Virus record (IMG/VR): IMGVR_UViG_3300008266_000309
Location: 1-30,675 of that record
Source: a virus
Length of the DNA stretch: 30,675 nt
Direction: 5' to 3' (one strand)
The notes under the pieces are model-generated. The model was not told the origin of the DNA, made no database searches, and saw nothing but the letters and a program-made list of their open reading frames with translations. Below are positions 738 to 27,788 of the stretch, piece by piece; the first letter of the stretch is position 1, and each line of letters begins with the position of its first letter. Position numbers and translations under genes: made by a program.

Positions 738-3320
738 ATGTATCAATCAATTTATTACAATTATCGAACTTATAATTATCATATTCGTGATGATAAACAA
801 GGTTGGATGGAGTTTCAATTCCAACCTACTTATTGGAAACGAGTACCTGAATGGAGAGAAGGAGCTCAACCTGTATTAACTGGTGGATGGGCTGTACCTA
901 CAAAAAAATTAGATAAAAACGATCCAAACTTACTAGAAAAAGATATAGACAAGAAATTACTTGTACTTCGAGAATTATATTATCAATTTGATGATGTGGT
1001 TCCATCTTTTCAAAATATAGTTTATATAGATATTGAGATTGAAATGGGAGGAGCACTTACTCCAAGTTATATAAAGTCTGCTCCTATGCCTATAACATCA
1101 ATTGCTTTAATTGATATTACAACTAAACAAAAAATATGTTTTATAGTTGATAAAACAAATCAAATTAAAGAAATAGATACTGGAGATAAACTTATTATAC
1201 CTTGTAGTTCTGAAAAAGAACTTATTAAACGATTTATAGATAAATTTGAAGAACTAGATCCAACAATATTAGTTGGATGGAACTCAGAATATTTTGATAT
1301 ACCTTATTTATATTATAGATTAAAATCTGTTGTAGGTAATGAAGTAAATCGTTTATCACCATTAGGTATTATAGATGAACGTGAGTTTAATGGTGAAAAC
1401 CAAATAACAATAGCTGGTATTAACCATTTGGATTATATGTTACTTCATAAAAAGTACATTATGAAGGAAGAACCATCATATAAATTAGGTGATATAGGTA
1501 TTAAATATGTTGACCTAGGTAAAATTGAATATGAAGGTAACTTAAATACTTTATTTAGAGATGATCCTGAGAAATTTATAGATTATAATTTACGAGATGT
1601 TGAAATTGTTGAAGCATTAGAAAGTAAACTTAAATTTATTAATTTAACAATTATGATTTCTCATATCTGTAATATTCCATATGAAAGTATTTATTGGAAT
1701 ACAGTTATGAATGAAGGTGCTATTTTAAAATATTTAAAACGTGAAGGTATAGTTTCACCAAATAAACCAACAACTCATAATCCATCACTTAAAAATATAA
1801 AAGATAGTTATGCTGGAGGATATTTATTAGAACCAATACCTGGTCTATATTTTGATGTTATTGACTTAGACTTTACCTCACTATATCCTTCAATTATCAA
1901 ATCATTAAATTTAGGTATTGAAACATTAGTAGGTAGAATAAGAGTAGATCATAATCCAACTTATGAACAAAATCATAGTCTTGAAAAATTAAAAGAACGA
2001 GATCCAGATGAAATTGTAGTTGTTGAAAAATTAGATAAAACTAATTATACTCTTAAATCAGCTAATATTAAGTTAAAAACTTTAATTGATTTAATTGAAT
2101 CAAATGAATATACTATTTCAGCATCAGGTGCTATTTTTAAAACAGATGAACAAAGTGTATGTTCTAAAATATTACATGGATGGTTTGAAAAACGAGAACA
2201 TTATCGAGGATTAAAAAAGAAAGCTGGTAAGGAAGAAGATTGGGCTAACTATAAATTATATGATTTATTTCAACATGCTTTTAAAATCTTACAAAATGCT
2301 ATGTATGGTACATATGCTAAATCTGGATGGAGATATACAGACGGTAATTTAATATGTAGTGCTGCTATTACTAATTCAGGACAGAGATTAACTCAAGAAT
2401 CTATTATATATGTTAATAAAACTATAAATGATGAATTAAAAATAGATAAACAACATATATGCATCTCAGATACAGATTCTATGTATATTGTGTTAGGTGA
2501 TTTATTAAAATATAGATTTCCAAATTTAGATCCTAAAGATAAAAACGATAAAATATTAGAAATAGCTTCTGAAATACAAGACTACTCTAATAATTATTTA
2601 AATGGATTAAGTAAAAAATTATTCAACATCAAATCCGGTACTCACTATTTCCAATTAAAACAAGAAGTAATATGTGCTGGTGTATTAACAACAGGTAAAC
2701 GTCGTTATGCAATGTATGTTACTAATAAAGAAGGTATAAATGTTGAAGAATTAGACATGAAAGGACTTGAATTAATGAAGTCTAACATGAATAAACTATT
2801 TAAATCATTTGGAGAACAATTTATTAAAAACATATTGTTTGGTAAAAATAAAACAGATATTGATACAGACATTATTAATTTTTATAAAACACTTAAAACA
2901 TTAGATCCAAGACAATTAGGTAAACCAACTGGAGTTAAACAAATGGGAGCATATTATATTCCATCTCGAGCTGGAGAAATGTTTAGTACATTTAGAACTA
3001 AAGCACCTGCTAATACTAAAGCAGCTGTTCGATATAATGATTTATTAAAGTTTAAAAAACTAGATACTAAATATGAATCCATTATTGAAGGTGATAAAAT
3101 ATTTATTATTAATTTAAAACCTAATGTCTATAAATTAGAAACAATAGGATTACCAAATGCTAAAGTACCTGAAGAAATAGAAAAATTTGTTAGGGAATTT
3201 ATTGATATAGATGAGATTTTTGAATCACTATTATTAAATAAATTAAAAGAACTTTATAAAGATCTGAAATGGCAGTTTCCATTATTAAATGAAAATATAA
3301 GCAAATTTTTTAAATTTTAA
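738..3320 (+). CDS. gp43: DNA polymerase, family B (T4 gp43-like)
   Basis: Replicative polymerase with 3'-5' proofreading, 860 residues (T4 gp43 is 898). Exonuclease motifs: Exo I YIDIEIE with D98 and E100, Exo II VGWNSEYFDIPYL (179-191, D187), Exo III YNLRDVEIVE (283-292, D287). Polymerase motifs: A DFTSLYPSII (378-387, D378), B KILQNAMYGTYA (516-527, K516/N520/Y523), C SDTDSMY (577-583, D578/D580), then GKRRYAMYV as the KKRY-like element. The C-terminus ISKFFKF resembles the hydrophobic tail by which gp43 binds its clamp. The start at 738 keeps an N-terminal region that lines up with T4 gp43. All catalytic residues are present, so it should be active. The clamp gene follows 21 nt later. Confidence 0.97.
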   Translation: MYQSIYYNYRTYNYHIRDDKQGWMEFQFQPTYWKRVPEWREGAQPVLTGGWAVPTKKLDKNDPNLLEKDIDKKLLVLRELYYQFDDVVPSFQNIVYIDIEIEMGGALTPSYIKSAPMPITSIALIDITTKQKICFIVDKTNQIKEIDTGDKLIIPCSSEKELIKRFIDKFEELDPTILVGWNSEYFDIPYLYYRLKSVVGNEVNRLSPLGIIDEREFNGENQITIAGINHLDYMLLHKKYIMKEEPSYKLGDIGIKYVDLGKIEYEGNLNTLFRDDPEKFIDYNLRDVEIVEALESKLKFINLTIMISHICNIPYESIYWNTVMNEGAILKYLKREGIVSPNKPTTHNPSLKNIKDSYAGGYLLEPIPGLYFDVIDLDFTSLYPSIIKSLNLGIETLVGRIRVDHNPTYEQNHSLEKLKERDPDEIVVVEKLDKTNYTLKSANIKLKTLIDLIESNEYTISASGAIFKTDEQSVCSKILHGWFEKREHYRGLKKKAGKEEDWANYKLYDLFQHAFKILQNAMYGTYAKSGWRYTDGNLICSAAITNSGQRLTQESIIYVNKTINDELKIDKQHICISDTDSMYIVLGDLLKYRFPNLDPKDKNDKILEIASEIQDYSNNYLNGLSKKLFNIKSGTHYFQLKQEVICAGVLTTGKRRYAMYVTNKEGINVEELDMKGLELMKSNMNKLFKSFGEQFIKNILFGKNKTDIDTDIINFYKTLKTLDPRQLGKPTGVKQMGAYYIPSRAGEMFSTFRTKAPANTKAAVRYNDLLKFKKLDTKYESIIEGDKIFIINLKPNVYKLETIGLPNAKVPEEIEKFVREFIDIDEIFESLLLNKLKELYKDLKWQFPLLNENISKFFKF

Positions 3321-4468: not shown

Positions 4469-6406
<1,938 letters not shown>

Positions 6407-6407
<1 letters not shown>

Positions 6408-27263: not shown

Positions 27264-27605
27264 ATGAAAGAACAAATTTGGACAGGTGGTTCATCAGGTA
27301 CAACAAATTGGCATTTTGGTGATACATTAAATCTAACTAACCCAAGAATTTCTACAGCAGCAGTATATGCGGGTACAGAATTAATTTTAAATAATATGAA
27401 TAAAGTAAATAATCAACTCGTCGCTATTTTTAAAATTGAGCGTAACGACAAAAACGAAATCACATCAGCTAAATTTATTAAAGAGATGTGGATTGAAACT
27501 AAAAACGGTTCATCAGTAGACTTTGAAGTAGCTAAAGATCCAGAAATTAGCAAATACAAAGCAGATGAAATCGCAATTAGAACAATATATACATTATCGT
27601 TCTAA
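27264..27605 (+). CDS. Unknown phage protein
   Basis: 113 residues, beta-rich. Starts MKEQIWTGGSSGTTNWHFGD and has ISTAAVYAGTELILNNMNKV, LVAIFKIERND and FIKEMWIETKNGSSVDFEV, a strand-helix-strand order that might form a small oligomer. No family recognised. Situated between a hairpin and the tRNA-like RNA. Confidence 0.72.
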   Translation: MKEQIWTGGSSGTTNWHFGDTLNLTNPRISTAAVYAGTELILNNMNKVNNQLVAIFKIERNDKNEITSAKFIKEMWIETKNGSSVDFEVAKDPEISKYKADEIAIRTIYTLSF

Positions 27606-27788
27606 GAAACCGTAGGTATATTTGAAAGTAAAGTCCTATTCAAAAAACTTAATAACTTTCGTTAGTCAGGTGAGTTGGTGCTCACGGAGAGTCGTTAAAT
27701 GGAAAGATACCATATCGACGAGGTGGTAAATGCCGAACAGGTTCAATTCCTGTCCTGACTACAAAAAATAAAAAATTATAGAATCAAT
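27606..27788 (+). other. Longest non-coding interval (183 nt)
   Basis: Contains the tRNA-like RNA and, just before it, a hairpin GAAAGT (27624-27629) with ACTTTC (27655-27660), extended by AGT/ACT inside. A TATATTTG box at 27617-27624 equals a perfect Bacteroidota -7 element but has ATTA instead of TTTG 20 nt upstream, so promoter status is open. Confidence 0.6.
27664..27761 (+). tRNA. tRNA-like RNA, isotype not assignable
   Basis: Perfect 7-bp acceptor stem AGTCAGG (27664-27670) with CCTGACT (27754-27760), then discriminator A. Perfect 5-bp T stem ACAGG/CCTGT (27737-27741, 27749-27753) with loop TTCAATT, giving the classic GGTTCAATTCC box. A D-arm-like TGAG-TTGGTG-CTCA follows the acceptor directly. 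The 52 nt left before the T arm do not make a normal 17-nt anticodon arm: they fold as GTCG/CGAC enclosing ATGG-AAAGATA-CCAT (no U33), or as TACCA/TGGTA. Length 98 nt, no encoded CCA. A degenerate tRNA, one with an insertion, or a tRNA-mimicking RNA are the alternatives. Confidence 0.5.

Follow-up and report, generated by a model that had tools for sequence, protein, structure and literature searches.

Phage genomes carry a large family of small elements that have the body of a transfer RNA (tRNA) and another sequence, here called the cargo, in place of the anticodon arm. We describe the family from a 98-nucleotide (nt) member at positions 27664–27761 of a viral DNA stretch of 30,675 nt (IMG/VR record IMGVR_UViG_3300008266_000309, positions 1 to 30,675; the window), the arms of which recur in at least 539 different elements. 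The elements lack an anticodon arm, covary in the tertiary core, carry tRNA-type flanks, show compensatory changes in their cargos and trade those cargos all or none at fixed sites. On balance, we consider it probable that they are small RNAs made by the phages, in which a tRNA body serves as the scaffold for delivering exchangeable, structured cargos.

In the window, the element reads AGTCAGG-TGAGTTGGTGCTCA-cargo-ACAGGTTCAATTCCTGT-CCTGACT-A, then C, and is composed as follows.

27264–27605, plus strand: 113-amino-acid (aa) gene directly upstream, which marks the site.
27663, plus strand: T at position −1, the preferred base before an RNase P site (PMC11143913), found in 80% of the family.
27664–27761, plus strand: anticodon-less tRNA-like element, 98 nt from position 1 to the discriminator A73, with the arms common to at least 539 elements.
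27664–27670, plus strand: 5′ strand of the acceptor stem, AGTCAGG; positions 1–7 are 96–100% conserved across 347 cargo families, partly by construction, as members were gathered through sequence similarity.
27671–27684, plus strand: D-arm-like hairpin TGAG-TTGGTG-CTCA, with U8 and GG present.
27685–27736, plus strand: variable cargo replacing the anticodon arm and variable loop, with predicted hairpins at 27691–27719 and 27724–27735.
27737–27753, plus strand: T arm ACAGG-TTCAATT-CCTGT.
27754–27760, plus strand: 3′ strand of the acceptor stem, CCTGACT.
27761–27762, plus strand: discriminator A73 and C74, found in 95% and 98% of the family, respectively.

The preliminary description of this DNA had reported a seven-base-pair (bp) acceptor stem, a discriminator A and a normal T arm around 66 nt without an anticodon arm, and each of these stands. 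All seven acceptor pairs form, the A lies at 27761 and the T arm is standard; the single 7-nt loop within the 66 nt (27671–27736), that of a hairpin at 27699–27713 (loop AAAGAUA), lacks U33, caps an interrupted stem and lies in the wrong place for an anticodon arm. As a compact D-arm-like hairpin with GG is present, the anticodon domain is the only missing part; this hairpin is shorter than that of most members and lacks A14 and A15. Of 200 dinucleotide shuffles, 197 are predicted to fold less stably than the window element (z −2.39). Its 5′ AGTCAGGT is exact, its 3′ half matches the 25-letter pattern without a mismatch and it carries, with a cargo for the anticodon arm, the AGTCAGGT and CAGGTTCRAWTCCTGTCCTGACTA-C arms by which the family is defined. 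ARAGORN reported no tRNA in the window and a cmscan of all Rfam models returned nothing at E ≤ 1, whereas several relatives score 31–44 bits with the Rfam tRNA model, over its 29-bit cut-off. Two earlier claims fell away. The extent of 27606–27762 contracts to 27664–27761, and a second hairpin proposed at 27624–27660 is not distinguished from its shuffles (z −0.36; 62 of 200 fold equally well) and is missing in relatives, two of which (L002 and L003) have about 12 nt between gene and element.

Relatives were gathered through neighbour proteins, three pattern scans of viral contigs and searches of whole records; the counts of elements and families refer to the matches listed and are lower bounds. 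At least 539 different elements, all sharing the arms AGTCAGGT...ACAGGTTCRANTCCTGTCCTGACTA-C, fall into at least 347 cargo families, 252 of which are singletons. Several contigs hold two or three copies, the 171-kilobase (kb) contig G004 has eight pattern matches, and whole-record searches gave up to 12 matches in a single 62-kb contig and none with a control pattern. Matches within one record lie nearly all on the same strand; 337 of the 347 families are outside open reading frames (ORFs) of more than 100 aa and 315 of the 347 are co-directional with the coding strand. One 62-kb phage contig (L193, G030:C1:14500-24500) has an array of 27 tRNAs interspersed with anticodon-less elements, its 12 pattern matches lying in or near the array. 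Sets of elements occur in many freshwater phages. None of 50,697 named phage records carries the pattern, and blastn of a typical member against them gave partial tRNA-Leu or T-arm matches only. The window element has no blastn homologue among the same phages, an exact-pattern scan with its 5′ half matched no further contig, and its own cargo found no relatives among the fetched sequences, the matches being short and at chance level. An ordinary cellular tRNA as source was rejected, as the T-arm/acceptor pattern is nearly absent from 84,980 bacterial species genomes: there were 10 matches, all but one within further such elements, on metagenome-assembled contigs.

The elements retain the determinants of a tRNA core. 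Among non-redundant elements, U8 is present in 195 of 195, A14 in 178 of 195, and 161 of 195 have a D arm whose loop contains GG (against 24% of shuffles), this arm being tRNA-Leu-like in most members. At the Levitt pair 15–48, A15–U48 predominates and G15 pairs with C48 (Fisher p 1e-6); the two positions are complementary in 297 of 347 families, compared with 268 on average and 280 at most over 2000 shuffles, a comparison that leaves some relatedness in, although the cargo families are distinct. The covariation at 15–48, together with a leader and C74 that match those of 710 ordinary tRNAs, argues that the tRNA core is under selection. By comparison, a canonical anticodon arm (5 bp, 7-nt loop, U33) is found in 1.9% of 161 parsed members and 0.6% of shuffles, and the middle, from position 26 to 48, spans 16–171 nt (median 53). 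In some members the D loop holds an extra insert (L007, near 6800; L087; L114). A near-identical insert, TGATAGTACAAAGAGTAATRGTATGTGCTTGATA, is joined to three different cargos in L292, L220 and L311, so that D-loop inserts recombine independently of the cargo. The first idea of the preliminary description, a mimic of tRNA and not a tRNA, is borne out by the same arms in hundreds of phage elements, the tertiary covariation, the processing flanks and the absence of an anticodon arm. Its other suggestion, a tRNA with an insertion, is not supported: halves of an anticodon arm were not found around the cargo, and the shortest elements (67–73 nt) are too small for an insertion in a normal tRNA and still have no such arm. 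It had also named the CCA-adding enzyme, RNase P, anticodon nucleases and elongation factor as possible targets; of these, anticodon nucleases are improbable, given the missing anticodon loop. That the element is one of a large, hypervariable family went unnoticed there.

The flanks of the elements are those of tRNA genes. Across the family, A−4 is found in 73%, A−2 in 73%, T−1 in 80% and C74 in 98%, followed by A-rich sequence; C74 was required by the first scan pattern only and left free in the other two. The 710 ordinary tRNAs on these contigs show the same signature, with corresponding values of 68%, 59%, 71% and 91%. Bacterial RNase P favours U−1, stacks A−2 and contacts N−4 (PMC11143913). 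These flanks indicate processing of the RNase P type, and we infer a tRNA-like maturation for the elements. The window copy has T−1 and C74 and lacks A−2 and A−4.

Six bacterial leucine-identity features, A73, A14, A15, U48, GG and A20a, occur together in 56% of the 347 families. Among the phage tRNAs of these contigs, the full set is present in 96% of tRNA-Leu (75 in all) and in 6% of the 557 others, of which tRNA-Gln (60%) is the main exception. E. coli tRNA-Leu without its anticodon and variable arms is still leucylated, the determinants being A73, A15–U48, G18G19 and A20a (PMC9976931). As the six features are present in over half of the families and leucylation works without an anticodon arm, many members may be charged with leucine; this does not extend to the window copy, in which A14, A15 and U48 are absent. 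The same facts could be taken further: the elements would be leucyl-tRNA decoys, minimal tRNA-Leu bodies charged by leucyl-tRNA synthetase (LeuRS) that titrate LeuRS, leucine or EF-Tu or feed a non-ribosomal use of Leu-tRNA, with the cargo merely staying clear. We think this unlikely. The feature set is incomplete in 32–44% of families, the window copy among them, is not unique to tRNA-Leu given its frequency in tRNA-Gln, and may be plain inheritance from a tRNA-Leu ancestor; moreover, a decoy of this kind leaves the conserved, covarying cargos and their exchange unexplained.

That exchange is seen by comparing the same genomic site between phages. The DNA of the 113-aa gene is 82–93% identical in relatives over the aligned part, and downstream of it (with one short ORF between in L005/L007) L002, L003/L004 and L005/L007 have an element with the same arms and another middle. 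Nine related contigs with flanks 84–96% identical carry at least seven different elements at one site. In 24 of 31 allelic pairs that share both flanks up to the element, the cargos are unrelated at a flank identity of 85–99%; in the remaining seven, they are 95–99% identical, even with flanks of 87–91%. Cargos are therefore swapped all or none at fixed sites; no intermediate cargo identity was seen among the 31 pairs, a result that speaks against neutral drift. Of 338 pairs that share a cargo, in turn, 293 have flanks without any relationship. One exchange can be followed to its ends: the L047 and G030 contigs are 99.2% identical over 996 bp before one element and 100% over 291 bp after it, and the L047 element at that site is a 96% copy of a G030 element that occupies a different array position. 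The breakpoints fall some 10 nt inside the 5′ arm and at the T arm. The near identity of the arms between elements points to recombination in them as the route of exchange.

This pattern bears on another account, in which intergenic tRNA-like folds act as processing punctuation, directing RNase P and 3′ enzymes to cut polycistronic phage transcripts and protect their ends, with a middle free to vary. The intergenic, co-directional placement and the RNase P-type flanks fit it. However, a neutral middle would drift gradually rather than be either nearly identical or unrelated between alleles, several cargos preserve helices through compensatory change, and clusters within 27-tRNA arrays require no added punctuation; we regard punctuation as quite improbable.

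The compensatory changes were found in three cargo families. In A2 (L264, L330, L315, L209 and L369), one pair of a 7-bp helix runs through GC, CG and UA and a 4-bp helix crosses it, with nine cells altered on both sides, a score that none of 500 shuffles reached. In A3 (L132, L349 and L177), seven pairs are altered on both sides (2 of 500 shuffles as high), and in A1 (L228, L275, L396, L369 and L192) a 6-bp helix has two covarying pairs (four cells; 2 of 500 shuffles as high), with a crossing 5-bp helix that fits and scarcely varies. Pseudoknots are thus likely in A1 and A2, as judged from five sequences each. Individual cargos hold further motifs. GTTCGA is enriched (nine occurrences against 1.3 expected), and the L252 and L311 cargos contain a T-arm-like hairpin with the stem inverted between them (CGGG-TTCGAGT-CCCG and CCCG-TTCGAGT-CGGG). 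Two larger families (L235/L019/L134 and L258/L127/L058) hold complementary 8-mers, AATGGCAC and GTGCCATT, possibly a loop–loop pairing or a product of chance. Antisense action on the own phage was rejected because the longest exact match of a cargo to the rest of its genome is no longer than in shuffles (11.1–11.2 nt against 11.2–11.5 nt in G029 and G030).

Several observations weigh against a scaffold for structured cargos, and against the window element as its example. The cargo covariation is based on three to five sequences per family; the mean folding z of cargos is −0.71, many being weakly structured on that measure; and neither self-complementarity nor long matches to the own phage genome exceed those of shuffles, so that no target within the phage is seen. 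The window copy is atypical, with A14, A15 and U48 absent, no 15–48 pair and a singleton cargo, and a covariance model built from the arms alone, which performs weakly on long cargos, picks up nothing but its 3′ half, and that with a long deletion (19.1 bits, E 0.0095).

We propose the following mechanism for the scaffold reading. The acceptor stem, the T arm and, mostly, a tRNA-Leu-type D arm would fold into a tRNA core, so that host RNase P and the 3′ maturation and CCA enzymes would trim the RNA and shield it in the manner of a tRNA; from the sequences we infer that the elements are transcribed, processed in this way and stable. The anticodon arm would be replaced by a structured cargo that differs from element to element, with hairpins and, in some families, probable pseudoknots. 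Near-identical arms would provide the homology through which recombination trades cargos among array positions and phages. Taken together, this suggests a natural, fast-evolving frame for the delivery of small RNAs. Function would reside in the cargo, which would most likely bind a factor of the host or of a competitor. Conservation and turnover are what speak for such a function, and our guess is counter-defence or competition between phages, of which counter-defence seems the likeliest explanation of the turnover. Put in its strongest form, which we hold as tentative, the elements would be an arsenal of exchangeable counter-defence or inter-phage RNAs in which a host-matured tRNA chassis carries hairpin, pseudoknot and D-loop-insert modules, each neutralizing one host or rival factor and swapped like cassettes through the arms.

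A related explanation places the activity in the tRNA body. The elements would be decoys or antagonists of tRNA-directed defence enzymes that act at the acceptor or elbow (nucleotidyl- or acetyl-transferases, or tRNA nucleases that do not cut the anticodon), with cargos tuned to each enzyme. The acceptor, elbow and CCA side are intact, the anticodon that anticodon nucleases target is absent, and allelic turnover is rapid, as in an arms race. We give this explanation a low probability, as it does not need the variation of the cargos and no enzyme, host or interaction has been identified for it. That the elements are degenerating or intron-interrupted tRNA genes of phage tRNA arrays was rejected as most improbable, despite their location in and near such arrays and their tRNA-Leu-like D arm, since conservation of the arms, tertiary pairs, leader and C74 equals or exceeds that in intact tRNAs, contrary to what decay produces, and no anticodon-arm halves flank the cargo, even the short members being without the arm.

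If the RNAs are made as their sequences suggest, the scaffold reading would mean that the tRNA-scaffold trick of biotechnology is used in nature on a large scale: one tRNA frame would carry folded RNAs by the hundred, unrelated to one another and numbering from several to a dozen in each phage, and whole cargos are replaced between phages with 99% identity elsewhere. An allelic exchange that is all or none is usually the sign of an arms race, and the cargos are therefore leads to host targets or defence systems. The set of elements also makes it possible to test directly for charging of anticodon-less RNAs by LeuRS during infection, and provides a comparison for species 1 RNA of phage T4. In the open papers searched, we found no description of this family.

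Public annotations may hide further members. ARAGORN labels some elements as ordinary tRNAs with false anticodons, including tRNA-Tyr (L002, 5654–5735), tRNA-Pro and 'tRNA-???', which affects phage tRNA counts. In the cultured Tenacibaculum phage pT24 (L162, 191.5–192.5 kb), annotated tRNA-Undet, tRNA-Sup and tRNA-Pro are accompanied by tRNA-like stretches that have no annotation, unusual middles and different arms, making this phage a place to seek a cousin class of elements. On a 104-kb contig (CALMEO010000055.1; L157 and L160), the 3′ half of one element and the last 15 bases of its cargo are repeated elsewhere without the 5′ half, in a manner like an attachment-site duplicate or an assembly artefact. 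Elsewhere in the window lie genes for a T4-like family B DNA polymerase and a GroEL chaperonin (738–3320 and 4761–6407), the best named match of the polymerase being Microcystis phage Mel-JY01 (33%).

Some known RNAs share the layout of the elements or parts of it. Bacterial Y RNA-like RNAs (YrlA) and plant-virus tRNA-like structures are RNA mimics of tRNA parts; the elements are discrete and have a perfect linear acceptor stem, unlike the Ro-protein-binding helices of the former or the viral genome 3′ ends of the latter, and no match to YrlA (Rfam RF02553) was found in the window or in five element-rich loci (L193–L197). Transfer-messenger RNA (tmRNA) likewise has a tRNA-like domain in which other structure, including pseudoknots, replaces the anticodon arm. 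It is about 350 nt long, however, compared with 70–190 nt for the elements, and its 3–70 pair is G–U instead of U–A; ARAGORN found no tmRNA in the window and Rfam none in the window and the five element-rich loci, a tag frame not having been searched for. Bacterial class II tRNA-Leu shares with most members the D-arm sequence, A15–U48, G18G19, A20a and A73, whereas the elements have no anticodon arm and hence do not decode. In the engineered tRNA scaffold of Ponchon and Dardel, the acceptor, T and D arms are retained and an RNA of interest takes the place of the anticodon arm, and is thereby processed and protected (PMC3753655). That scaffold is man-made, whereas the elements are natural and have hundreds of different cargos; it and tmRNA resemble the elements in layout only.

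The nearest known thing in kind is T4 species 1 RNA (rnaC, AF158101 70908–71046; L414), which is annotated without a function. Like the elements, it is a small phage RNA with tRNA genes beside it, a stable one at the end of their cluster. It combines a T arm (CCGGG-TTCGAAT-CCCGG) and the remnant of an acceptor with a large domain that is not an anticodon arm; with a perfect T arm and five of seven acceptor pairs at its 3′ end, it has the look of a tRNA relative in which a large domain was replaced. Unlike the elements, its matched acceptor strands pair at only those five positions, it has no assignable U8 or D arm and no Rfam tRNA match, and it occurs once per genome, differs in sequence and shows no cargo exchange, being 95–100% identical across 651 of the 710 phage records in which it is present. 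A search of the 50,697 phage records with rnaC led to T4-like phages of enterobacteria, and the element searches returned no T4 rnaC. No known class unites a tRNA body devoid of an anticodon with exchangeable cargos in the hundreds; on a stricter view, the family could count as a new form of the tRNA-like stable RNAs of phages.
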